Source: Cochliopodium minus (Eukaryota; Discosea; Himatismenida; Cochliopodiidae). Taken from it: a stretch of DNA of 31,889 bases. The stretch covers positions 258,270 to 290,158 of the forward strand of contig JAMYWO010000004.1 of assembly GCA_024220525.1 (NCBI GenBank). The letters are read 5' to 3'. The notes beneath the pieces are model-generated. The model did no database searches. It had not been told where the DNA came from and saw nothing but the letters and a program-made list of their open reading frames with translations. The stretch's first letter is position 1. The number at the start of each line of letters is the position of its first letter. The translations under genes and the position numbers were made by a program. Below, piece after piece: positions 3,738 to 31,889 of the stretch.

Positions 3738-5348
3738 ATGAGCATATTTTTTGACTCCCTCCCTCAAAATGCACTGTTATCCATCCTCTCGTATCTTCCC
3801 AACAAAGATTTGGGCATCATCTCCTTGGTCAACAAGAAATATTACAAATTGTCACGTCATAATTTCATCTGGAAGAAGAGATTGATCTCTCATTTTCAAT
3901 TCAAAGGTAATTTGATTGAGAAATAGGAATCCTTCCAAAAAAATATAATATAATGAAATTTGTTAGTAAATATGATCTACTTTAACAAAAATGATAATAT
4001 GGGATACATTGATATTATATAGTATCTTATGTTGAGATTTAAAAATTGATCCAAATTATAAGGAGAATAAAGAATTCAAAATTGTTTTAAATTGTATTTA
4101 TTTTATTTTTGAATTTTATAAAAAGAGAATATTGAAGAAACAAGCTACGAAACTTACAAAACTTTTCTCAAGGCAAAGATACCAATCTACAAGAAGACAT
4201 TGGATTATCTCAATTATAAAGACACCAACAGTCTTTCCATGGTTAGCACTTCCTGGATGAAGTTAACAGATCATGTAAAAATAAATTATATTAATTAATA
4301 TAACAAAAAAAAAAAAAAAAATTAAAAATAAACATAGTAATAATAAACAAAATAACTAAAAAATTTTATTTTTTAAAAAAAGATATACAAGAAAAAAATT
4401 GCCGAAAAGTTCCCAAAATTCCAAATTCCCAACTTGACCTCTAACAAAAATACTAACTACAAATCTTTGTACATTTCTCTTCTTAAAAAGGAGTTTTACA
4501 TTAACTGGATGAAGGCCACCCTTAAAATTATATTCATAGGATATTTAATCAATTATTTCTTAGTTACGTTAAAACAATACGTTTCTCTTTCTTACATAAT
4601 TTTTTTCTTCCTAGGTTTGAAAGTTCTCAAGTTCACTGTGTTGTCTGTAAAAAAAAAATTAAAATCAACTCATTTTTATAAAATCAAAATATTTCTTAAA
4701 AATAATAGTACTTCTTCAAAAATTTTGGAAGAAAACTGAATCCTATTCGTTATTTCTTTTTCACTGACATTTATTTGATCTACCACTCCTTCCATTTCAT
4801 CACCTCCCAGCAAAATTATTTTAACGTAGATATTTACTCTCCCTTCCTTCTCAACCTGGTATGTTTGCAAATTATCACGTTTGAAGTTGGAAGTTTGTTT
4901 AATGTCCAAGTTTCTCTTTCTCTTAGCAATCTATTTCAGGTAAAAATATTTTCTTATAAATAAAATTTGTATTTTATTTTTTGAAAAAATTTTTTATCGA
5001 AATAACTTACAGATTTTCTTATATGGCCTGGGCTATATTACCCCAAGTTCTCACATATTAGTTATCTACCGTGCCCTCATAGGTTTCGTCTTCTTTTTCA
5101 ACCCACAATCGAATGCGCGTTTCTCGAGATCCAATACTAAATTTTTCATAATCTCAATGTATGTCGTCATGTCCATTGTCACAGCTGTAGTTTTCTTTCT
5201 CCAGTTATTTTACTTCGGATCTTATCGTGATTATACTTATTGGATTTTCTTTGCTGGAATGTTTGGTTTTGTAATTCATTTGAACAACGTTAGAATGTAC
5301 TACCAGGTATTTAATTCTTTGAACAGAAGAAGAAAGAACTATTATTGA
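3738..5348 (+). CDS. F-box protein with a second F-box-like unit and a polytopic membrane domain
   Basis: Five exons close in frame: 3738-3906, 4126-4274, 4383-4646, 4709-4939 and 5013-5348 (382 aa). Residues about 6-50 are a clear F-box (SLPQNALLSILSYLPNKDL, then a W at about 48). After WKKRLISHF a second, weaker unit follows (YKKTLDYLNYKDTNSLSM ... SWMKL). Each unit is followed by a similar YxTYKTFL/YKSLYISLL helix, so the N-terminal half looks like an internal duplication. From about residue 135 the protein is strongly hydrophobic, with roughly six or seven predicted spans (for example IIFFFLGLKVLKF, MSIVTAVVFFLQLFYF). I do not recognise the membrane family. F-box proteins usually bind SKP1 as substrate adaptors of SCF ubiquitin ligases; a membrane-anchored one would act at a bilayer (inference). 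An alternative is two neighbouring genes wrongly joined at 4646/4709, but phase and hydrophobic character are continuous there. The gene converges on its right neighbour, with 62 bp between stops. Confidence 0.6.
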
Positions 5349-11664: not shown

Positions 11665-14600
11665 TTAATCAATTTCAATATTATCAATAAATTCGTTGAT
11701 CAATAATCTTTGACGAAGAATAGCATTAATCCAAGTCTGAGCATGCATCTGATCCGATCCTTTCAATATGATGAACCCATTGTCACCCTCAAAATTAATT
11801 TTAAAGCATGTCCCTTTTGTTTAAAAAATTAATTTTATTATTTCATTTTTTAAAATTTTATTTTTTTTACCTTGGAATACTTCAGGTTCGTGCTCAGTTA
11901 ACTTGCATTTGTAGAGGGCAAACTTCTTTTCGCATTTGGTTCCCTTTTCTTTGAATTTAAAGAGAAAGCCCTCTTGTAAGCAAAAATATTTTTTGATCCA
12001 TTTTGAACCGTAGAATTTGACACTCATGTAATCTATGTAACCCTCTTTTTGTTGTTCCAACTTTGAGATTGGAGATTTCCTATTTGGATCAAAAATTTTG
12101 AAAAAATTTGAATTATTTGAAACTTTTAAAATTTTACCACAAAACATCCCTCTTTTTGTCTCTTTCAAGATCTCTGAGTGCGTTTTGTTTGGAATCCTCC
12201 AATATTTTGATCCACTCTAATCATAATAATTAATACAGTAATCTTATTTTTTTTTTTAAAAAAGTTTTATACCTAACATAGTTTTATTACTTTCTGCTTG
12301 AATGGAGAAAGTTCTTTCAACAGTAACTATCTGAAATACATCTTTAAAAATTAAAAGAATAATTAAAATTGGGGATAAAAAATATGAAAGGAAAAACCTG
12401 TTTTAGTTTCAAGAGCAAAAATAGAATTGACGAAAGCGAGAGGAATGAACCCTTCAGGCTTCTTCCCTTTCTTCTCCTCGCTCAAGTAATAAAGGAGCTT
12501 GTTGTTCTTCAAAACAAAGTAAAATTGCTTGAAAAAGCTGATAATCCCCTCGGTCTCCATCTTCATTGTACCTTCTTTAGTGAGATACTCTTGTAACTCG
12601 GGAAGATCATTAGATTCATTTTCGTTTCTTTCGATCATGAACTGCTTGACGAGTTTAACAGTGTTTCTCTTCTTCCACTCCTTGAACTCATCACTAGGAA
12701 AGTTTGTCATGTCAACTGTGGTTGTTCTTTCGAGCAGATTTTCTGAGTTGGCGGATGCTGTTACATTCATGTTATTATTCGAAGTGTCTGTTAACAGAAA
12801 AAAAGAATTAAAGTGAAAATAATTTTTTTTTTTTTTTTGAGTTTACTTTTACGAATGTCTTCTTTTTGAGGATCTTGTTTCACGACTTTTGGTTTGTTAG
12901 GTGTCGAAGGGAGAATTTTGTTGACTTTTCTTGAGAAAGTTATGTTGCATTTGTGACATTTATACTGGACCTCGCTCTCAAGGCTTAGTTGTGTATTACA
13001 TTTAGAACAGTTTGGTGGTTTGGTTGTGCTAGTTGAGGTTGTAGTGGGTTTGGGAGGAGGCTTTGTAGTTGATGTTGTAGTCGTGGTTATAGTTTTAGTT
13101 GGAGGTTTGGGAGGAGGCTTTACAGTTGAAGGGGTTGTTGTGGTTGTGGGGATTTTTGGAGGAGGTTTAGGTTTTTCTCTCTCCAACTTTTCTTGTCTCT
13201 CCTTTTCTTGTTTCTCCTTTTCTTTTTCCATTTTATCTCTTTCTTGTTTCTCCTTTAGCAGTTTCTCTGACTCCAACCTTTGCTTTTCTAATCTTTGCTT
13301 TTCTTGTCTTTGCTTTTCTTGTTTCTCTTGGAGTTGTTTTTCTTTTTCCATTTTTTCTCTTTCTTCTTTCTCCTTTAGAAGTTTCTCTGACTCCAACCTT
13401 TGCTTCTCTAATTTTTCCTTTTCCATTTTTTCTTGCTTTTCTTTTTCTTGTCTTTCCTTTTCTTGTTTCTCTTTGATTTGTTTCTCCTTTTCCATTTTTT
13501 CTCTTTCTTGTTTCTGTTTCTCAGACTCTTGTCTTTGTTTCTCTAGTTTTTCCTTTTCCATTTTTTCTTTTTCTTGTTTTTCTTTTTCAGATCTTTGTTT
13601 TTCAATTCTTTCTTTTTCCTGCTCCACTTTCTTCTTTTTGTTTTCCTCTTCTTCCAATTGTTTTTTCTTTAGATCCTCTTCTTTTTGTCTTGCTATTTTC
13701 TGTTAAATTTAAATTAATAACGAAAGAAGAAGGCTTCTAAAAGTGTTTACTTTCCATTCTGGTTCTTGGTTTGTATCTTTTTTTGGTGTGGCGTTGGTTT
13801 GCTTTTTGTCTATAAGATTGGAAATAAAATCGACAGATTCTTGTTTTTTGGTGGGAACTTTCGGTAGTTCTTTGGGTTGAACACTGTTAGTTACTTTGCT
13901 TGGCTCTTCTTTTTTGATATTACTAGTAAAAGTTTCTTTCCTTGGCTCTTCTTTTTTAATAGAATTTGTCACATTTTCTTTCCTTGTCTCTTTTTTGGGC
14001 AGACTTATCACATTATCTTTTATTTCTTCATTTTTGGGTGGACTTTTTATGCTTTCCATACTTAACAGACTTGATATATTATCTTTACCTGATACTTGAG
14101 TACAATCTATGAAAATAATAGTATTCATAAATTATAAAGATTATTTAAAATGAATACCATTATCTAATTTATTATGTTTGATTGCTGCAATGAAAGCTTT
14201 TTTTCCGCACATGTTACCTTTAAAATATTATAAAGATATAATGTAAAATGTAATTGGAATTTTACAATATGGCTTTTCCATTACAGCAATGCACTAAAAT
14301 TTATTAATAATTTAAATATTGAAAAATAAATTATTAATAAATTTACTTTTCCACCGCTGATACTCTTTTTGCAAGTAAAGCACTTGAAACATTCTTTATG
14401 ATAAGAATGATTTTGGAATGTAACCATGTCTCCTGAAGTAGCTTTTTGGCAAAAAAAACAACTACCGCCAGATGTTCTACTTGGTCTTTTAAAAAATTAA
14501 ATGAAAATTTTAAAATTTAAGGTTACTCATTTTGTGGTATTTCATCTGTTTTTTGTTTTTTTGGCACTTGGTTGGTAATTTGAGTAGTTGGCTTGGTTTT

Positions 14601-15645
14601 TTTGACACAAACTTCGCAAATGTATGATCCATTTTGGTTGATGACTTTAAGAAATATTAAATTAAAAAGAAATTAAATTATTAAATTTACTATCTTGATC
14701 TTGTTGGAATGGTTTGGTGCATTGAGAACAATTAAAACAGTTTTTATGGAATAAGTTATCATCATAGGAAATGGTAGTCCCTTCAAGTTTTTTTTTGCAC
14801 TATTTATAAGGAGATTAATATGTCATCTTTAGAAAGAAAAAACTTTACTTTATAACAACTTGGTCCTTTTTCATTTATAAGAGATGTATTCGATTTTGAT
14901 ATTCCTACTTGTCCTGGATTTTTTGAAAAGTAGTTATATAGAGTAGAAACGTAGGTCATCGTACCTTTAGAATAAATTAATCAAAAATAACAAAACAAAA
15001 AGACTTTAGATATAATACAAAGAATTCATGGATTTATATTTTTATCCAATTGAAAATCGAATTATAAAATAATTACTTAATGGCTCGGGTTTTGTTATAA
15101 GCATATCTTCTGCATCCAATAAAGATGTCACTCCTAATTTCTCCATTATTGTGAATGCCAGATTATGATTTTTGAGCATGTTATCCTGTGACAATGAATT
15201 GAAATCTATCAAATCTGGTCGATGTGCATGTATAATTGCGCAAAATGCAAGTCTAGATTTATTTACGAGTATATTTAGAAATTTAAATTTCAATAAATAT
15301 TCTGAAAATTTACCCTAAATCATAGTATTTTGAATAATTTTGTTATCATAGATTGTATTAATAGATCTTTACCATTTCTCCATGATTCGCTAAAAAAAAA
15401 TAAACATAAAATAAAATTTTTTTTAGTTCATTAAGTGAAAAAATTGAATCACCTAAAATTGGTGATACTGACATTCTTATACCCATTTGTAACCTTTTTT
15501 GTCCATTCTTCATTTGAAAGAAAAAAAATTAATTTTTTAAAAAGTGATTCAAGAATATATTTACCCAACAATGCTGCCTTTCCTATATATTGATAAGTAT
15601 GATGGAATCTTTAAATTTATGATATTTATTACCTGTTTTTTTCAT
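11665..15645 (-). CDS. Cytoskeletal CH-LIM-LIM-coiled coil-zinc ribbon-PH-PH protein
   Basis: About 19 exons join to 984 aa. 5' exons: 15645-15633 (13 nt), 15582-15565 (18), 15507-15453 (55), 15389-15373 (17), candidate 1-nt exon 15314, 15252-15077, 14964-14849. Then 14799-14691, 14644-14527, 14485-14347, 14293-14266, 14217-14158, 14106-13751, 13699-12847, 12787-12398, 12341-12273, 12216-12138, 12079-11871 and 11813-11665. Residues 1-125 are a spectrin-type calponin-homology domain (ALLEWTKKVTNGYKNVSI, LAFCAIIHAHRPDLIDF, LGVTSLLDAEDML, TMTYVSTLYNYFSK). Two LIM zinc fingers follow (about 130-182 and 216-272), each with the C-x2-C...H-x2-C-x2-C-x2-C...C-x2-C pattern. Residues about 417-580 are Lys/Glu/Gln coiled coil. 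A Pro/Thr linker, a CSKC...CHKC zinc ribbon (about 632-664) and two PH domains end the protein. CH suggests actin binding and PH lipid binding, so it is a likely membrane-cytoskeleton scaffold. Confidence 0.85.
15314..15314 (-). other. Candidate 1-nucleotide microexon
   Basis: On the minus strand the sequence reads TTTAG, then G, then GTAAAT, so a single G is flanked by a full acceptor and a full donor. The flanking introns would be 15315-15372 (58 nt) and 15253-15313 (61 nt), both typical in size and composition. Using this exon gives exactly SWRN-GLAFCAIIH, the invariant core of a CH domain. Alternative: one intron ending at a TTTTCAG acceptor, which inserts about 16 AT-rich codons (EYLLKFKFLNILVNKS) into the core while keeping an open frame. 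Confidence 0.5.
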
Positions 15646-15832: not shown

Positions 15833-17202
15833 ATGGGAAATGAGAACAATTCGAGAAAGAAATCTATAAGAGAGAATAGAATTATAAATTCAAATGATCA
15901 AAAGAAGGAATCAGAGAAAATAGAATTAAAAATTCCCTTTGAAATAGAACAATATTTGAAGAAATATTATATTAACTCATTGAATCCACAAGGGAAAACA
16001 ATATTACATTATTATTGTATGAAAGATCTTGATTTTGAGAAGATTTCTGTTCTCCTATCTCTCAAGGCAGATGTAAAATGAATATTTAGTTAAATCGTAT
16101 ATATAAAATGAACTATATTTGTACAAGGTAAAGATAAATGATTTGGAAAAAAGAGAAGCAATACATTATGCATGCATGAACCCGAAAATAAATTTTGAAA
16201 TCATCAAATTATTAATGGAAAATAGAGCAAATTTGAATAATAACGATAATCAATTGAATTCTGCAATATTTTATGCAATAACCAACAAAAATGTAACAAC
16301 CGAATTGATAAGGAGATTGGATGAAATGGAAAGAATAGGTTTTGAATTGTTATTAGAAGCAATAGGTCCAATGATTCCAACCACAGAACATAGAGAAAAG
16401 ATTATTGAGTTTTTGATCACAGATAATAATTATATAAAACAAAAGGGTATAAATATTTTATTCATTATTGAGAGATCTAAAAATTCAATACAAAATTTTT
16501 AGATCTACAGTTAAAGTCTCTATTACATCACACATGCCTCATCAATTCAAATTATAATCTTATTTTAAAATTGATCGATAACAAGGCGGATGTAAACGCA
16601 GTGGACTCTCATAAAAAGAGCCCTTTACATTGTGCTGTCTTGAACAATGACACCTCACCTGACATTATTCTTTCATTAATAGAGAAGGGAGGTAAAATTT
16701 ATTGTTATTTCAAAATTGTTTTATCAAAGTATGATAACTATATAGCTGATCCTGATTGGTTGGACAATGACCAAGTATGCTTATTTAAAATTCTTTTTAA
16801 AAATAAACATATGCTTAGGAAACGTCTTTGCATTATGCGTGTACACGGGTAATATTTCTTTTGAAAAAAAAAATAGTTTTTGAACCTATTTTTTTAATTA
16901 AGAATAAACCTGATTTTGTAATCATTCTATTAATGAAAAAAACTTCTATCAATTTGAAAAACTACAGAGGTCTAACTGCAAAAGAAATTGCTCTTGTTCA
17001 TGAGGACAGAGAGTGTTACGATATTTTGGATGACTTTGAAAGGGGTTTATATCTTTGGAATGCTAAAAGGGAGAAGTACTTCCCCTTTTCTCTAAAAAAC
17101 AAAATTTTGTGCTTATTGATTTGTATCAGAGTAAAAAAGGGAAAGTTTAAATTCCCAAAGTATGTAATGTTTATCATAATCAATAACATTATTTTTAATT
17201 AA
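15833..17202 (+). CDS. Ankyrin-repeat protein with the shared C-terminal box
   Basis: Six exons join in phase to 368 aa: 15833-16072, 16128-16446, 16503-16691, 16746-16774, 16819-16848 and 16903-17202. Degenerate ankyrin repeats run from about residue 45 to 310: GKTILHYYCMKDLDFE, REAIHYACMNPKINFEII, KSPLHCAVLNNDTSP, ETSLHYACTRNKPDFVI, and a final INLKNYRGLTAKEIAL. The last 40 residues (YFPFSLKNKIL, ICIRVKKGKF, KFPKYVMFIIINNI) match the tails of the three RCC1 proteins in this window. The protein starts MGN, so N-myristoylation is conceivable. Ankyrin repeats bind proteins, and the tail may recruit a common partner (inference). Exon 3/4 and 4/5 junctions are supported by the repeat pattern across them; the exon 5/6 acceptor could alternatively lie upstream, though that gives a worse repeat. 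Confidence 0.8.
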
Positions 17203-17278
17203 ACCTTTCTCTGAAAATCTGATTATTAGAAGATTATAATTATAATTGATTATATTATTGAACATTTCATAAAAAAAA

Positions 17279-20200
17279 ATGGAAGAAGAAAAAATTTTTG
17301 ATAAATACGAATTTTATTCTCCTAATTATTCATTAGATGAATCTGAAAGATCATTATCTTCATCCTTTGTATATGATGTTCAGTTGGAGAGCATTTCGAC
17401 TCACAGCGAAAATAAAAGCATCAATCAATTCATTCAGAGGCAAAACAGCAATTATAATTATGATCAATATAAACCATCATTGAAGAAAGATTATTCAACA
17501 TTGGAAGAATTGCTGAGAACAAATCCCAACCTAAAAAGTAAATCATTTTTTTTATTTCAAAGATCCTCAAAACATAAATTATCTCAAAAAATAAAATACG
17601 ATGCAATAAAGCACATAAACACATTTTTTCAATCAATCACAAAACAATAATTTATTAAATATTCACAAAAAGGAGATAACATTATCAATGAAGATAAATA
17701 CGATGATTATGATGTTGTCACTTTGAGCAGTAATAGTAATATTTCAACTCCGAGTATCAGCAGCAATGATTCTAAGAGTGAATTGAGGGATAATATCAGT
17801 TATGAATATCCCTATAAAGATCAGAGTCTATCTGAATCCCAAGACTCATTGGAAATAGAATGTTCAGATTGGAATCTTCAATTCCAACATATAAATAGTC
17901 TAACAGATGAAAATGAGAAAATATCAAGATTATCAACAATAACAAAGAATTTCCATTTCAATGCAAAGGTAAAAAACAGTCCAATTATACCAAAGCACAT
18001 CTTGATATCTTAATATAATTTAAAATATCCTTTTTCGCTCATAGAAATATGGAGAAATAATAATCTCCGAAAGATTTCTTCCAATAGAGAAAAGAATAAT
18101 AAAACCTATTTCTCTTGGTGGAATAGCGGGTAAAAATCTTTTTTTTTTCACTGATTATTTATAATATTATTATCATAAAAAGGCGGAGAAAAATTTGTTG
18201 GTAAAATTGATATTATTTTGAAATAAAATCCATTTTAAAATAAAATAATCAAATTAATCAACACTTATTTTTTTAAATTTACCAGTTCACGGTATGTTGT
18301 ATAAATTTGCGCAAGATATCAAAATTTCAAAGGGAACATTTATTTATGGATTCAACGAAAAAGATGGTAAAATTAGAAAATAAATTTTAATTAAACATTT
18401 CAAAACTAATTCATGAAAAAGATTATCTTGCACAGAAGTCTGTTGGACATGAGCTTAAAAATATTTCTGCACTTTTTGATGTTGTAAGTAGAGACACATC
18501 TCTTTCAAGTTTCACAATATCTCTTTCTTGCAGGGTTGATTTCATGGGGTACATTTCTTTTTAAAAATTATCAAAATTAAATCATTTTTATTTATTAGGT
18601 TTCGTCTTTTTGTTCAATCATTGCTTCCAATAGATAGCGAAACACTAGTTTATGGAAGTGAAGATGGTAATATCTTACTTTATTAACTTACTATCGTTTT
18701 AATATCGATTTAGGGGGAAGAACAATCAAAAGTGAAAATAGAAAAGTTAAAAATATCATGGGGAGTATTGCAAGTAGTCTCTACTTGAAACCTCATGTTT
18801 GCTTGGATAGGGAGAAGAACGAACACGAATTGATTGGTCCTTGTGATGTTGAAATTCACGAAAAGGGAGATACTTTATATGCAATAGGTATAAAACGATA
18901 TAATTTGATTTCTTATTGTTAATTTTTTAAAAGATCTTGCGAGGTAAAATATCCTTTAAAAATTTTGAAAAATATTGTAATTAATTCTATTAAGATTGCT
19001 TCCCCCTGACGTGGATATAAAGAAGCCTCACTCAGTTTTTTACCAACAGTTTAGACCAGAGTTTTTGAAGTGGTATAAAAAACCTATGAGCAGCGATGCT
19101 TGCACCAAATTTGGAGCAATTGATTCCAAAATCAATAATGATGATGTAATTCCGTTCCAAATAAACTATAATGGCTAATCGTTCAATATTTTTAGGTTTT
19201 GGAAGCTTCAAGAATTTTGAGAAGTGAAAGAATTCCCAAATTTTCGAGAACTTTTAATATTTCAAACTTGAAAGAGTCAAATTTGAGGGGAATTAGTTCA
19301 GCAATGCAGCAAAGAGGTAAAATTATTTATTTTGAAATCTGTTTTTATTTATTTATTTTATTATGTTTAGGAATTAATGTTAGGTATCTCGGATTGGTGA
19401 GACAGCACGCAACAGATCCAAGAATTAAATCTAGATGCCTCTTTGAGATGATATGTAGAATCACATCGAATCATCTCAAAAAGATATTCAGAAACGAAGC
19501 TGAAAGAATAGGGTAATTTAATCAAGAAAATTTTTCTTATTAATTAATTTTTTATTTTAATAGAATTTTTAAACAAGAATCTTTTGTTGGATTGGCTCGT
19601 GATTATTATAACGATTTTATACTGAACAACTCTTCTTGGAAAAGAGATGATTTCTTTAAGAAGGGTATCATGGACAAATTTGGGGAGAATTCACTTTCAG
19701 AAGTAGAAAAAGGGGAAGAGTACAACTTGCTTCAGGGGATCAAAATCTCGAACATTTTCAAGTACCTTTCTCAGAAAGTGGGGGTTTCTTTGAGATATGA
19801 AATATTCGAAAGATTTGTAAATAATGAACAATCCATCATATCAAGAAAGAATTATTATACAGAAGAATACATCACTTCTCTCTCCAAGTTTGAGTTTGTT
19901 GTAGATGATTTCGAACCTTTTGTCGCTTCCATAAAGGGTCTAAAGTTATTTTCAATGGCAACTGCAGAATCAATGAGAAAGCAAGCATTACAAAAGACAG
20001 ACATCGAAGAAAAATTGAGCATGATGTTCAGAGCAGCAGATTTGATGGACGAAGGTACCATTTTATTATTTATTTTTCACTGTTAATTTATTTAATAAAT
20101 AGCTTCGGGAGGAGATATCTATGAAAGAATTAAATACACTAAATTCAGAATTGAAATTGTAAATTTGATTCTTGACAATCAAAAATTGATTGACAGGGAC

Positions 20201-23200
20201 AACAGCTGGATTGACAAAGTAAAGAAAATCAATGAAAAAACGGATGGAATTTTCAATGAAATCAAAGATCTCTGCCAGTTCAATGAAGTAGACTTTCCAT
20301 CTGATATGGAAATTTTGTCGATCACTTGTAGCCTTCAGAAGATTTTAATTTCAAAGAAGACCAGCGCAATTACTTCCAAAATTGAACAAGTGGTCAATAT
20401 AATGAAAAACATTGAGAGTTTTGGAGAGAATTATGAGGAAAAGGAAGAGCATGTGAGTTGCATTTCCAAAATCACTTATGATTTGTTGAGTTACATTTCA
20501 TGGCACAAAGATTGGAAAGAAATTTTGCACCATGGAAACAACATGTCGAAGATATTGAACTACCCTCTCATTTTACAAAGAGTTTTACAAATATTGGTTG
20601 AAAAGTAAAGTGTTTCATTTCTTTGGATTTATTTTAATTGATTTTTATTTAGTGAAAAAATAGAAAGGGGATCAGTAATGAGGCCATTGCTCGAATTGGG
20701 AAAACTTGAAGAAAATAAGTTAATATCAGAAAGTCTGGGGAATTATTTACAAACCTTGTCAAAAATTAACATCTTTAGGATTACACCCGGTTTGATAACC
20801 GACGATTCTGTCATTGGAAATCTCAAAAACATTTCGCCTATGCCTTCCTTAAACAAACTGACAATAAGAAATAGTGGCAAGTTAACTTCAAAGACACTGG
20901 ATTTCTTTTTAAGTTGGGCTCCCAATTTGTCTGATTTTTCTTTGAGGAACTATTGGAACATTGGTGACGAAGGTGTTTCCATTTTGTCAAAGTTTGAAAA
21001 GCTCGAAAAATTGAACATTGGTCCAAGTTTGATCGAATCCAGATCAATGGATCATTTTTCAAGATTGTCTTCTCTCAAAGTTCTGAGCTTGAATAAATGC
21101 TTCAAAGTTGAATATCTCCCATCAATGAAAGCTTTGGTGACATTGTCCATCAAGAATTTTTCTCAAATTTTCGTCAATTTTCAGAACTACTTCAACATCT
21201 CCAATTTTCCCAACCTTAACAACATTTATTTTCGAAACACCAACATTTCTGATGAAAATCTTTCTTTCATGTGCGATGAATTTTCAAGCAACATAACAAA
21301 ACTTTGTCTCAACTATTCCAAGGGAATTGCCACTTTGAAATGCATCGAAAAATTGTCCTCTTTAAAATCTTTTGAAGCCAGATCTTTCAAGGGATACACC
21401 AAAGAAAGTGAAGAAGAAGCGATCATCTGGCCAAGATCGATAACAAAGATTGATTTGAGAGATTCCAAAGTATCTGATTCCTTTTTCGATTCTCTTCACA
21501 GTAACAATCTGAGATATCTTGATATTCAATTCTCATTGATTTCAGATAAAGGCATCCTGAGAATCCTCGAAAATTCATGGAAATCATTGAAAGTGTTGAA
21601 GATCAGATTCTGCGAGCTTCTCACTTCTGAGAGCAAGAAAGTCATCTGCTCCAAGAGCAAAAACTTGAAGAAGTTTTCTGCAATGGACATCGAAGCTCAT
21701 CATTTTATGAAATTGGATCTCTTGAAGCTTGTGAGACTCAAAACTAATTTTTCCAACTGCTCTCTTGAAGATTACAAAAAGATCATTCCAAGATTGATCA
21801 ACCTCAAAGGACTTTCTCTGAAATCTCAACTTGAAGATAAGGTAGTTTCTTACATCTGTAATCACTGCAGAGAACTCAAGAAACTCAATTTGTCGAGCGA
21901 AACACTCACGGACGAGGCTTGTGAATACATTTCGAAGCTCAATCCAAAATTGAAAGAGTTGGACATCTCTTACTGCTCCTCTATCACTAAAGTTGGTTTA
22001 GAGTTTCTTTTGGAGAACAACTGTACACTCAAGCGTTTGAAGGCTTACAATTGTAACACAATGGAGCCTGCTTGTTTCAATATCATAGAAGAAAGATGTG
22101 GGTAAAAAAAAAAATATTAAAAGTTTAAATTTTCTTAAATTTTTTTTTAAAAAAATTTAGATATCATCTCGAAAAATTTGAAGGGTTTTTTGGTAAAAAA
22201 AAATTTTTAAAATTTTAAAATAAAATTGAAGCTTTTTTATTCACCTAGCTTTGTCACAATCAAAAACTTTCTATTTTCCCAACCTAAAAAAATTTAAGGG
22301 CTATTTCTTTGAAGAAACTGGCAAGAGTTTCTCAGAGATGGAGAAACTTCTTAAGCTGGACGCATTTTTCACCACCATTGAAGACAAACAATTAGAATGT
22401 GTGACGACATGCAAGAGTCTAGAGAATTTTCAGTGTTTGAGGGGTACTATCATCAATATTTGTGAAAAAGATCCTACCTTTCTTCAAACATGGGGAGAAA
22501 ATAACGAAACAAAAAATAATATTAGGTTTTTGAATCTTCCTTTTGATAAATTTAATGAAAGAAACATTCTTTACTTGAAACATTTCGAGAATCTTGTTTA
22601 TTTCCCTCTCGATCAACTTAAAGTCTCTTCTACTTCCAAGTATAATTTGAAGAGCTATTTCCCTCATTTCAATGAAAATTTTATCACTAAAAGCAACGAG
22701 GAGAAAAACTTTCTTTCTACCAACAGAGAATCCATAAAGTTCCAATTTTCAAATGATATAGTTTGCCCTCTTTGGAAAGGACAAGTAGCAGGTAAAAAAA
22801 ATTTTTTTTTAATTTATTATTTATATAAAAATAACAATTTTGTATAAATTTATTTTTATTTTTGAATTTGTTTAGTTGTAAACCACGGTCATGGGGAGGT
22901 ACAAGCATTCATAATCATGAAATTGTTTTCGATGGGTTACAAGGTGTTCGCCTTCTATGACGATTCCATAAAATGCAAGGAGACAGAGATGTTGCTGGAG
23001 GAGAAATTTCAAAGGAATGTCATCATGTTACCTTATGTCCCCAACAGTGAAAATTCGGTCAAGGAAGCTTGTGAAAAAGCCCAGAGTTTGGGTTTAGATA
23101 AAATAGATTTGATGATAGCAGGTCCTCTAGGAGAATCCCACTTGCTTGGTAAACATTTTTTAGAATATTTTTTTTTCTTTAAATTCCAAACATTTTATAA

Positions 23201-23835
23201 ATAAAAATTTTTTATTAATTTTATTTTAATGTTTCATTTGAAACTAGAAGAAGTGTCCAACAGTATCGAATGTTGTACCAACCAAGAATTCTTGGCCACA
23301 ATGGACAAACTTCTCTTTCCAACTTTCTATTTCTTGAAGGTCTTTTCTCCAATCATCACCAGCACTCCTAATGCGAAGTGCTGTTTTGTAGGATCGATCA
23401 TGGGTCTCATTTATGGTAATTATTATTTAACATATAATTTTGTTTGTATATTCATTTTTTTTTAAAGTGAATTTTTCTGGGAGACAATACTATAACAGGT
23501 AATACATATTTTTTTCCCAAATTTAATTATTTATTATTTTTATTTAGAATTGTTAATTCTTCTGTACATCAATTATTCAAAAATGTTTGCCTGGAGTGGA
23601 GGGATAAAGGGGTTTTGGCATTTTGTGCGGTCCCTGGATTTGTTTCAACAGGAGAATATGTTAAGTACAAAAAGGATCGTTTTTTTTGATTTTCATTTTA
23701 TTTTCATTTTGTAGATATGACATTGTTGGATCCACTGCTTACGTTGGTTGTGAAAAAATTTTCAAGATCATCGATTTTGCCAGTATTGAGCACTCTGGCT
23801 TGTTTATTAATGATAGACTTCAAATTGTTTTTTAA
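17279..23835 (+). CDS. CLU-like / leucine-rich-repeat / degenerate SDR fusion protein
   Basis: Twenty-two exons join in phase to 1752 aa: 17279-17537, 17673-17968, 18045-18129, 18183-18200, 18286-18366, 18422-18548, 18599-18666, 18714-18887, 18934-18943, 18995-19145, 19196-19316, 19371-19512, 19564-20054, 20103-20604, 20653-22101, 22161-22192, 22249-22791, 22876-23148, 23248-23415, 23468-23498, 23548-23664 and 23715-23835. Residues 1-185 are Ser/Asp-rich and disordered. About 186-400 read like a CLU domain: GHELKNISALFDVV, DFMGFRLFVQSLLPI, ETLVYGSEDGG, YAIDLARLLPPD and FRPEFL. GINVRYLGLVR near 464 fits the same group. A helical part follows, then LRRs from about 842 to 1516 (LKVLSLNKC, LKELDISYCSSITKVG), of the F-box-LRR/AMN1 style. 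Residues 1517-1752 resemble a Rossmann SDR (VVNHGHGEVQAF, MIAGPLGES, CFVGSIMG, FCAVPGFVST). The catalytic Lys of YxxxK is absent, so it is probably not an active enzyme. Function is unknown. The exon 1/2 intron (135 nt) is the least certain junction. Confidence 0.75.
18934..18943 (+). other. 10-nt microexon
   Basis: ATCTTGCGAG is flanked by AAAAG and GTAAAA. Without it the exons 18714-18887 and 18995-19145 are out of phase, and reading through hits TAA at once. With it the peptide is AIDLARLLPPDVD, matching the D-x-A-R-x-x-P-P core of CLU domains. This is the only in-phase solution I could find. Confidence 0.8.
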
Positions 23836-27138: not shown

Positions 27139-27175
27139 AAATTCAACAATGAAAAAAAAAAAATGGGAAATTCAA
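27134..27175 (+). repeat. 13-bp direct repeat at the RCC1 start codon
   Basis: ATGGGAAATTCAA occurs at 27134-27146 and again at 27163-27175, the latter beginning with the RCC1 start codon. The first copy overlaps the end of the G8 fossil, so this is probably the junction of a duplication or insertion event. Confidence 0.7.
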
Positions 27176-29394
27176 AAGTCAAATCAAATGTGATAAAAAA
27201 CGAGAAACAAGAGAAAACAAATATTGAAAACATAAAAGAGAAGAAATTAGAGATTGATCATAATTCAATACAGAGCAAGAAAAGAAAATTTATACCAATT
27301 AAACAAGAAGATTTCACTCTTGAGAAACATGATTACAAAATTGGATTCTTTATAACTGAAAATGATGATAGAATCAAAGATGAATCCAATAATCCAACAT
27401 TATGTAATCCTTCCAAAGAAATTGATCAATAAATTTATATTCAATTAATTTAGTTGATGAATATACAATCGAAAATATACCAACCATATCAAGTACTGCT
27501 GATTCTACTTATGGTATCATTAATAACTCAATAATTACCAATTATATATTATTAATTTATTCATATTATTTCGCATATGAAATTTTATATTATATTATAA
27601 CCAAAAAGGAATTAATGAAGAGGGAGTATTAGTTTCTTGGGGACAGAGTTTGAAAGATCAAGACTATCATCCTGATGTAGAACCAGTGGAGGAATTTTTG
27701 GGGATAGGTGTGGTGGCAATAGGGATTGGAAACTCTTCAATGGTACTTCTTTCGGATGATAATAAGATTTATTATCCCAACAAAGTGTAAATTCGTTCTT
27801 TGTTTTTCATTTTTAATTCTTTATTAACTTACTTCACAAATTAGATCCAAAGAATTTTATTATTTGTTCCAACCACCAGAAAAAGTAATTTGCGTATCTT
27901 GTAACGAGCAAGAACTATTTGTGGTGTGCGAAAACTCTGTTGTTTATACCAAACAATTTTCGGTTAATGTAATCAAAGAAATCACCTCTCTGAGAGACAA
28001 AAGTATAAATAGAGTAACCTCTTCAATTTTCCACTCCATCTTTTATTCTACTATAAAGGGAACTTTTTATGGCTATGGCTTGGCAAGAGATCATTCTGTT
28101 CAAGACTTATTTTCGGACTCTGAATCAACTAACAGTGAAGATGACGGAAAAAAAGATCGTTCCCCTCTTAATCAATTAGACATGACTTGGTAGATTCTTT
28201 TTTTAAATTTCATTATTTTAATTTAAAAAATGTTTAATTATATTCTGTCATATTGGAAACAAAATTAAAAAAATGTGGGTTTGTTTTGCAGCTTTCAACT
28301 GCTTTCATTCTATTTCTGATAGGACATTTTCATTTTTCATTTTTTTCAAATCATTTCTTATTTATATAAAAATTAATTTGAATGTGATAATTGGATCTTC
28401 AGTTAATGAATAAAATTTGATCCAAATTAATGTTGATTAAATTATTGGTTTGTTTATTAAAGGTTACCAAAAGGAAGAAGAGTTGTAAAACTTGGATGTG
28501 GTGGAATGGCCCATTATTGGTTACTAGATGATGGTTCGTTTTACACTTCTGGAAGTAACGGAAATGGTGCCATGGGGAGAAGCAACGAGGATGTCATTTG
28601 TGCTAAACCATTTGAAGAGAAAGTTCTTGCCTTTTCAGCGCAATATTACGGGTGTATTTTACTTGTTAAACACAATAATACTACTTCCCCAACTCTTTTG
28701 TATGGATGTACGATTTTTAGCAATTATAATTTTTTTTTTAAAAAATTTTTTTTTTGAAAGTTGGTTATAATACAAACGGAGAAATGGGATTAGGAACAGA
28801 AAACAGGTTAACTCAAAAATATCCTGTTCCATTGGCTTACAAAAAAAAAAAGGTGGTAGGAATGTATTGTGGATATTTTCATTGCCAACTCCTCGTTGAA
28901 TCTGACAAGGGAGAAAGACAATTGTTGGGATGGGGTAATTGCCATTTTGTGGATTTTAAATATTTATTTCAACCGAATTCGGTTAAATTGTTTGACTGTT
29001 TTTAATTTAGCCAATTAAGTTAATTAATTTTAGATTCAGGAAAAACATCATTATTATTTTGATGGATTTATTGAGACATTCTATAAAATTTAATGCAAAT
29101 TTATTAATAACAATACTAAAAATTTGTAAAGGGTTCAATTATTACGGGCAAGTAAATAATTTTAATAGCACTGACAAAAGTTGTAGAGGTGCTTCTTATT
29201 ATAACCCAGTCTATGGAACCAAAAAAATTTCAAGATTTCTTTCCAACGTTTGTATCTCTTGGTCTCCTGATATACATCATTCTTTTTCACCCATCGTCAA
29301 AAAAAAAGTTTTGTTTTACTTGTTGGGACTCAAATTTCAGAAAATGAAACTTCCGAAATATTTGAATTATAAAATCATTAAACTATTTTTGTGA
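27163..29394 (+). CDS. RCC1-repeat protein, paralogue A
   Basis: Seven exons join in phase to 501 aa: 27163-27403, 27454-27513, 27609-27786, 27845-28189, 28463-28707, 28761-28934 and 29132-29394. After a Lys/Glu-rich, probably disordered N-terminus (about 80 aa, starting MGNSKVK), RCC1-like blades run from FDEYTIENIPTISST onward: GVLVSWGQ, ICVSCNEQELFVVCENSVV, FYGYGLARDH, LLDDGSFYTSGSNGNGAMG, FGYNTNGEMGLGTENR, and CGYFHCQLLVE. The fold should be a beta-propeller. The tail KKKVLFYLLGLKFQKM ... KLPKYLNYKIIKLFL is the shared C-terminal box. No BTB domain is present. RCC1 propellers act as exchange factors or protein-binding platforms; the tail favours an adaptor role (inference). The 273-nt intron 28190-28462 is unusually long. 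Confidence 0.85.
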
Positions 29395-29668: not shown

Positions 29669-31737
29669 ATGAAAGGCCCAAATGAAAGAAAGATTGTTGA
29701 GATAGATATTAAATTTAATAAATCTCAAATAAATAATAATGCATCCAATGAATTCAAAATTGGATCAAAAAAAGAAACAGATATAATACGTAACCAAAAT
29801 AATATCCAATATTTGGCAATATAAAATATAAATAATGAATATTAAAATAAATAGTGGATGAATATAGTATCGAAAATATACCAACAATTTCAAGTACATC
29901 TGATTCCACATATGCAATCAATAAAGAAGGAAAATTGGTTTATTGGGGAAAGGTGGGAACAAATGATAAATTCTATCCTGAAATCGAGTTGGTGGAGGGA
30001 ATGGAGAATGAAAATGTGATTGCAATGGCAACTTCGGGAATCAATAGAATCTTTCTGACTATTGATAATAAAGTGTTTGTGATCATTGGGTAAATATCTA
30101 TTATTTCATTTTATTATGTGATATATTTTATAATCGTTTATAAATGAGATCAAATAATCTTTATCATTTGTAAATGTTGATCCAATCATTTTTATTAACA
30201 AATTTTCAAATTTAAAATTTAATTTCGATGAGATTCTTGGACTATTTTTAATTCATTATTTTTTTTTATAATTTAAAGAATAAAATCATAAATAATTTAA
30301 TAAAATTTCATTACTTTTTTGATTAAAATAGTATTTTTTATATTAAATATTTATTTTGTAATAGTAATTACAATAATAATAAAGTTGAATATGTCTTCAC
30401 TCCAAAACAAAGAATTCTTTGTGTAGCCTGCAACTATACCAGCTTCTTGGTAGTCTGTGAAAACTCGGTGGTTTATCTTATAAAGAATGAGAACAAAAAT
30501 ATTTTGGAGATCACATCACTTAGAAACAAAAATATTAATAGAGTTTCCGCACAAACTAATCGTGCCATTTTCTCTTCACAATTTAACAAAGACCCAAATG
30601 ACGATCTTTTTATTGGTTATGGGTTTTTGTCGGATCATACTGAAGTTTATGGAGATATCAATATGGGATTAGAAGAATTGGATATGACTTGGGTTCCAAA
30701 GGGGAGGCGTGTTGTAAAAGTAAAAATTAATTCAATTAAAATCTCATTTTATAATTCATTATTTTATAAATATTTCACTTGTCAATGTTGTTTTAATTTT
30801 TTTTTATTGAAAGGTACAATGCGCAGGAGAAGCAAATTATTGGCAATTAGATGATGGGTCTTTTTTTTCATCTGGTAGAAATGGTAATCGAGCTTTAGGA
30901 AGAGGAAACTCAGGGAAGATTTGTGATAACCCCTTTTCTGATGGCAAAAAGATTCTGGCATGTGCGGGACAGTTTTATGGTTGCATTTCTCTTGTTCACC
31001 AAGATAAACCAAATGAAAATAAACCTTCTCTTATTTATGGCTGTAAAACTTTTTTTAAAATATACATATATTAATAGTTTATTTTTTATTTTTATAAATA
31101 ATATTTATAATAATATCTTTTGGCAGTTTTTTAATAGGTAATTTTTAAATAACCAAAATTTTATTATTTTCTTAGTTGGATACAATGCGAACGGAGAAAT
31201 GGGTTTGGGAACTAACAATTCAACGAAAATTTCGCCAGTTGAGTTGACATATTGCGAAAGAAAGGTGGTAGGAATGTATTGTGGTTATTTTCATTGTCAA
31301 CTCCTTGTTGAACAAAATAATGGAGAAAGACAACTTTTAGGATGGGGTTTGTTTTAAAAATTAAATTAGATTTTTATTATTTGTTTTTTAATTTTATGAA
31401 TTTTATTTATTTAATATTTTTATTATTAATCTTTAAAGGATACAATTCTTATGGCCAAGTTAACTCACTTGATGAAAACCCAAACAAACTAAGAAACAAT
31501 TTTTATTCACCAACTTATGGATCTCGACAAATATCAAGGTTTCTTTCCAATGTTGCAAATTTACCTTGGACTCATGAATATCACTCCAAGTTTCCCATTG
31601 TTGTCAAAAATAAAGTTTTGTTTTATTTGCTTTGTACAAAAGCCAAAAAATTCAAACTTCCAAAGTATTTAAACTTTCAAATTATTAAATATTTTTATAA
31701 TTTTTATTTTATTACAATTAAAACTGGCTTAAAATAA
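29669..31737 (+). CDS. RCC1-repeat protein, paralogue B
   Basis: Six exons join in phase to 469 aa: 29669-29789, 29855-30089, 30365-30719, 30814-31042, 31176-31346 and 31439-31737. It is a tandem paralogue of the gene at 27163: DEYSIENIPTISSTSDST, VVCENSVVYLIKN, IGYGFLSDH, QLDDGSFFSSGRNGNRALG, FGYNANGEMGLGTNN and CGYFHCQLLVEQ all have direct counterparts. The tail (NKVLFYLLCTKAKKF ... KLPKYLNFQIIKYFY) is the shared box, here followed by 14 extra residues. The N-terminus is about 40 aa shorter than in paralogue A, and it starts MKGPNERK. Intron positions are partly different from paralogue A (see findings). Predicted role: propeller-type protein-binding module, possibly an adaptor. Confidence 0.85.
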
Positions 31738-31889
31738 ACGTTTGGACATGATCATCTCAATCATCTCAAATCTCATCTCTTAAGAAATAAAAATATAGGA
31801 AATGATAAATTTCTTAATCAATTCAATATTGAATTGAAAAACAATAAATATGTTTATTGTTGTGCTTGCAAGGAGATAAGTAAAGATAA
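31738..31889 (+). CDS. Possible partial exon at the right edge
   Basis: Directly after the TAA of RCC1 paralogue B, the same frame stays open for 50 codons to the window end. It contains HDHLNHLKSHLLRNKN and KYVYCCACKEISKD, with a CC-x-C cluster and spaced His residues suggestive of a zinc-binding or nucleic-acid-binding module. There is no ATG near its beginning, so it may be an internal exon of a downstream gene or part of a mobile element. The signal is weak. Confidence 0.25.

Follow-up and report, generated by a model that had tools for sequence, protein, structure and literature searches.

How does a gene of Cochliopodium minus assemble the conserved glycine codon of its CH domain when the two exons that carry the ends of this codon do not fit together? 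In the stretch of 31,889 nucleotides analyzed here (hereinafter the window; contig JAMYWO010000004.1, denoted C4, positions C4:258270-290158), 120 nt on the minus strand (15372-15253) interrupt this codon, and the outer splice sites of the interval are one base out of phase, so that direct joining of exon 4 to exon 6 yields a product that is one base short, out of frame and soon terminated by a stop. The earlier note on this locus had proposed that a single G within the interval is used as an exon. Our analysis of the genomic sequence indicates that this is very probably the case, with the glycine codon predicted to receive one base from each of three exons, G at 15373, G at 15314 and A at 15252; the second of these would be an exon of one nucleotide located between two ordinary GT-AG introns. 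We rank this solution so high because of the phase mismatch, the near-uniqueness of the splice model and the fact that a diverged paralog, located on contig C107, is arranged in the same way.

The gene that carries the interval spans positions 11665-15645 of the minus strand and, according to the unsupervised gene parse and the spliced translation, consists of 19 coding exons with 984 codons; the spliced sequence of 2955 nt is in frame and contains one terminal stop. Pfam searches with the protein divided into two pieces detected a CH domain (PF00307, 2.3e-26) and a LIM domain (PF00412, 7.3e-17, two stretches), with a PH domain (PF00169, 1.6e-20, two stretches) in the C-terminal piece; the CH domain is N-terminal and is followed by LIM, in agreement with assignment to the CH-LIM family and with a protein of the cytoskeletal type. 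On the minus strand, the 5′ part of the gene starts with exon 1 (15633-15645, 13 nt, including the ATG), followed by exon 2 (15565-15582, 18 nt), exon 3 (15453-15507, 55 nt) and exon 4 (15373-15389, 17 nt), the last base of which is the first G of the glycine codon (phase 1). Intron 4 (15315-15372, 58 nt, GTAAAG...TTTAG) has a donor of 8.5 bits (74th percentile of the predicted introns) and an acceptor of 5.3 bits (32nd percentile). The predicted exon 5, a single G at 15314, provides the middle base of the codon GGA and is followed by intron 5 (15253-15313, 61 nt, GTAAAT...TCTAG), with a donor of 9.2 bits (83rd percentile) and a weak acceptor of 3.2 bits (10th percentile). Exon 6 (15077-15252, 176 nt) opens with the last base of the glycine codon and continues with L-A-F-C-A-I-I-H. 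The coordinates and sequence of the interval (58 nt, the G and 61 nt) are those reported in the earlier note, as are the sizes of the neighboring exons (13, 18, 17 and 176 nt). Among the other 16 introns of the gene, 15 are 41-63 nt long and one is 112 nt long.

We enumerated all GT/GC-AG splice models of two classes for the interval: those with one intron, whose sites could lie beyond the interval by as much as 12 nt, and those with two introns, each 30 nt or longer, between the fixed outer sites. Two models keep the frame and avoid stops, namely, the 1-nt exon and a single 71-nt intron, which leaves 49 nt of the interval in the exon; only the former preserves both the frame and the glycine. 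In the 1-nt model, a canonical AG precedes and a canonical GT follows exactly one nucleotide (15314; AG/G/GT), and both flanking introns are of the GT-AG type.

The 1-nt exon was also selected, unprompted, by an unsupervised parser that combines Markov models of coding, intron and intergenic sequence with splice-site matrices and a learned intron-length table; when its donor was forbidden, the parse lost 9.9 nats and switched to the 71-nt intron. This choice is supporting evidence only because short exons are not penalized and the locus itself belongs to the training data, which comprised the window and ten 10-kb stretches (47 genes, 211 introns and 169 internal exons). No other internal exon among the 169 consists of one nucleotide. 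A 3-nt internal exon was called elsewhere, on the minus strand of a neighboring 10-kb stretch (L021, 0-based positions 4197-4199 of the reverse complement).

An intron of 120 nt is not abnormal per se in this genome because 33% of the 211 predicted introns are at least 100 nt long and 5.7% fall between 115 and 130 nt. In 40,000 simulated introns of 120 nt, the pattern AG-N-GT leaving at least 40 nt on either side was found in 1.8% of the cases, AGGGT so placed in 0.4%, and AGGGT with splice scores no worse than those of the C4 gene in 0.11%. Among the predicted introns, AG-N-GT so placed was found in 0 of the 38 introns of 90-160 nt and in 0 of the 79 introns of at least 90 nt. For simulated introns of 127 nt, the length of the corresponding interval in the C107 paralog, AGGGT so placed was found in 0.58%, and its chance occurrence in both loci would amount to about 2 in 100,000 if the two were independent, although, given their shared ancestry, they are not fully so.

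The paralog itself (L003 and L031, on C107) is the strongest evidence for the 1-nt exon. It was identified by searching the AT-rich genome (44.65 Mb, 598 contigs) with the CH protein, which produced 33 matches, 3 of them exons of the C4 gene itself; 20 other loci were fetched. A separate search for the CH family listed 90 matches exon by exon, some of which were inspected. Like the C4 gene, the C107 gene is one base short at this codon, and here, too, a single G within AGGGT makes up for it. The 18-nt exon is followed by an intron, a 52-nt exon (55 nt in the C4 gene), another intron and a 17-nt exon, TGAAAGTTGGAGATCAG; then come a 61-nt intron (GTAAAT...GATAAG), the G (L031:2280, equivalent to C107:105279, assigned by homology), a 65-nt intron (GTAGGG...ATATAG) and the continuation A TTG GCT TTT TGT. 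Thus, the exons of 18, 17 and 1 nt are identical in size between the two genes, and in both, the neighboring exons are out of phase without the single base, the skipping of which results in a frameshift and an early stop. Enumeration for C107 left the 1-nt exon as the single frame-keeping model; no one-intron model survives, and the sole in-frame acceptor that can be paired directly with its donor leaves a stop.

The two genes are considerably diverged, with 82 of the 119 aligned residues identical (69%), pS of 0.62, dS of 1.33 and dN of 0.25, that is, a dN/dS ratio of about 0.18 over the CH region. Alignment of their introns is no better than that of shuffled sequences, and two introns of the C107 gene fall inside the region that corresponds to exon 6 of the C4 gene, where they are absent. 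Because the introns are unalignable and yet AG/G/GT is common to both genes, this motif appears to have been preserved while the nearby intron sequence turned over. The inner sites of the C107 gene are weak, at 3.9 and 4.5 bits compared to predicted-intron medians of 6.3 (acceptors) and 6.8 (donors), and the C107 CH exons ahead of an internal ATG were missed by the parser, regardless of whether GC donors were allowed, so that the C107 model is based on homology. The first intron of this gene is apparently GC-AG (L031:1910-2003, GCAAAA...TGATAG), as judged from the homology of the first exons, and is required by the C107 model.

The recurrence of the same deficit and the same solution in C107 makes it unlikely that the C4 arrangement reflects base loss, a pseudogene or mere chance. 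Besides the 1-nt exon, the enumeration for C4 left only the model with a 71-nt intron that ends at the acceptor TTTTCAG at 15302 in frame and free of stops, and this model is the second choice of the parser. The earlier note correctly described it as keeping an open frame and inserting about 16 codons into the CH core, but gave the retained length as 51 nt, whereas it is 49 nt, 48 nt above the 1-nt model. Its acceptor scores only 1.0 bit, and it converts to glutamate, followed by an AT-rich insert, a glycine that is present in all 18 paralog loci for which the alignment covers this residue (of the 20 fetched, C107 and one other do not cover it). Moreover, this route is closed in C107 by the stop behind the in-frame acceptor, and we consider the model very unlikely. 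An assembly or sequencing error, whereby one base is missing at a splice junction of a plain 120-nt intron that is otherwise in phase, appears equally improbable. With a base added at either junction, a parse with one intron does become acceptable, trailing the 1-nt model by 3.5 to 4.1 nats before priors, and introns of the requisite size, as noted above, do occur among those predicted. Such an error, however, would have to be matched by an independent identical deficit at the same codon in C107 and by fortuitous AGGGT motifs in both intervals, and the remainder of the C4 gene is intact across its 19 exons.

The possibility that the C4 gene and its paralog are pseudogenes frameshifted in this stretch draws on the same out-of-frame junction of exons 4 and 6 with its early stop, and we regard it as the least credible of all: the rest of the 984-codon frame is intact, the dN/dS ratio between C4 and C107 is about 0.18, and the identical defect comes with a canonical rescue in each locus. 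Slightly less remote, but still highly unlikely, is a single intron with a one-base shift to noncanonical termini, either GT-TA or TA-AG, which would give the same mRNA without any 1-nt exon. Both loci have G/GT at the donor and TAG/A at the acceptor, such that a one-base shift would yield GGA in either case; furthermore, the cDNA would be identical under the two explanations, so that the extra G in cDNA is necessary but insufficient to establish the 1-nt exon. Introns with GT-TA or TA-AG termini are extremely rare, and such an intron leaves unexplained the AG/G/GT in the middle of the interval in both loci, where it divides the interval into two introns of the usual size.

Within this one genome, the 1-nt exon recurs in C107, and another paralog has a single intron at the same glycine instead. 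This paralog, C81 (L006 and L032), contains CH and LIM domains according to Pfam, and its single 55-nt phase-1 intron interrupts exactly the same glycine codon with an ordinary junction, G/GA; C81 also shares with C4 two further introns in position, at residues 5 and 94. A predicted exon of 6 nt in C81 (L032:1482-1487) lies between introns at CH residues 5 and 7, and tiny exons are recurrent in this CH gene family. C81 most naturally represents the earlier state with one intron, although the change may instead have run in the opposite direction. In a tree of the CH domains alone, which included 9 of those encoded in the genome, C4 and C107 grouped together (support 64) and C81 was unplaced; given that the support for C81 is just 28, the tree does not settle the direction of the change. 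Among the other loci, C227 was considered as a third case because its match begins right after the glycine, but inspection by eye shows a phase-0 intron one codon later and no 1-nt exon; the C227 CH exon was not called by the parser. In C354, C207, C81:2149 and C141, where CH matches also begin near the glycine, the parser called no 1-nt exon, and C81:2149 gave no gene. Searches of genome and viral contig collections, both poor in eukaryotes, confirmed no relatives in other organisms. A myosin head encoded in the genome scored best against PDB entries from Dictyostelium discoideum (up to 843.8 bits, compared to 734.5 bits for the top entry of the following group), which is a lead toward an amoebozoan affiliation; a search for 5.8S rRNA found nothing.

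Under the scenario that we favor, the ancestor would have had one phase-1 intron at the glycine, as in the present C81. Two routes are conceivable from this state: the gain of another intron one base further downstream, or the loss of an exon base at the acceptor, compensated by a cryptic AG/G/GT within the intron that restored the frame; the latter combination of base loss and a cryptic 1-nt exon is the route proposed for Fusarium CYP621A (PMC12940212). In either case, the change to the 1-nt exon would have preceded the duplication that gave rise to C4 and C107.

As regards splicing, the two introns would be recognized by intron definition and removed one after another, since the proximity of the TTTAG and GTAAAT sites would prevent their simultaneous occupancy. 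After the first step, the leftover site, TGG/GTAAAT or TTTAG/GACTTG depending on the order, would resemble a normal splice site. Sequential intron removal has been proposed for the plant APC11 gene (PMC4674806). When intron 5 of the C4 gene is kept, the reading frame immediately meets GGG TAA, and when intron 4 is kept or the 1-nt exon is skipped, a stop follows within about 20 codons; the same applies to C107. Since skipping or retention soon meets a stop, the full protein is expected from correct two-step splicing only.

The statement of the earlier note that single-nucleotide exons are very rarely documented is fair. Nuclear cases have been described in APC11 and VPS55 of plants and CYP621A of Fusarium (PMC4674806, PMC12940212, PMC8831610, PMC12409088), to which mitochondrial ones can be added, and among the open-licence papers matched by searches for such exons, no title or abstract opening names a nuclear 1-nt exon in a protist. 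A close counterpart of the C4 gene is CYP621A, where (PMC12940212) the exon is likewise a G within AGGGT that forms the middle nucleotide of a conserved glycine codon and bridges a phase-1 to phase-2 mismatch; the interval in both cases is about twice the usual intron length (139 nt in CYP621A compared to 120 nt in C4 and 127 nt in C107). In contrast, CYP621A is a fungal P450 gene in which the exon is conserved in 24 genes and covered by 18 SRA reads (PMC12940212), whereas the predicted exon described here is conserved between two paralogs of one genome. In the APC11 gene of land plants, including Arabidopsis (PMC4674806 and PMC8831610), a single-nucleotide coding exon, constitutive in this gene, is also located between two introns, but the gene and the lineage are different, and splicing has been verified in vivo with constructs. 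The 1-nt microexon of land plant VPS55 (PMC8831610) resembles the present case in that duplicates with and without the exon exist, as with C4 and C107 compared to C81; VPS55 differs in that a single gene in some lineages produces transcripts with and without the exon, and the donor context is GTRAGT. The single base-pair exon of placozoan mitochondrial cox1 (PMC5436844) differs from that of C4 in being mitochondrial rather than spliceosomal, in a lineage where cox1, according to the abstract, has trans-spliced introns; the mitochondrial literature also includes work on fungal mitogenomes.

With high probability, then, the C4 exon is an addition to the very rare spliceosomal kind represented by those of plants and Fusarium, and its occurrence in a pair of diverged paralogs, in a short-intron genome that is probably amoebozoan, would carry 1-nt exons beyond plants and fungi. 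The more ambitious interpretation has, in our estimate, about as much for it as against it: this would be the first nuclear 1-nt exon outside plants and fungi, and an old one, selectively kept through gene duplication despite complete intron turnover, with C81 as the likely earlier state. If this is true, the genome provides a before-and-after picture of the birth of a 1-nt exon, along with obligatory stepwise splicing in which every error truncates the protein. C4 and C107, together with the apparently pre-change C81, are tractable loci for the study of both stepwise splicing and the origin of 1-nt exons.

Two observations pertain to the neighboring genes in the window. Beside the CH-LIM gene, on the plus strand, the parser called a long multi-exon gene (15833-23835) that by eye starts as ankyrin-like and continues as leucine-rich-repeat-like, and is probably a fusion of separate genes. 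Further along the same strand, two adjacent predicted genes (27163-29394 and 29669-31889), RCC1-like by eye, contain similar segments (VVCENSVVY and YGQVN) and look like a tandem duplication.
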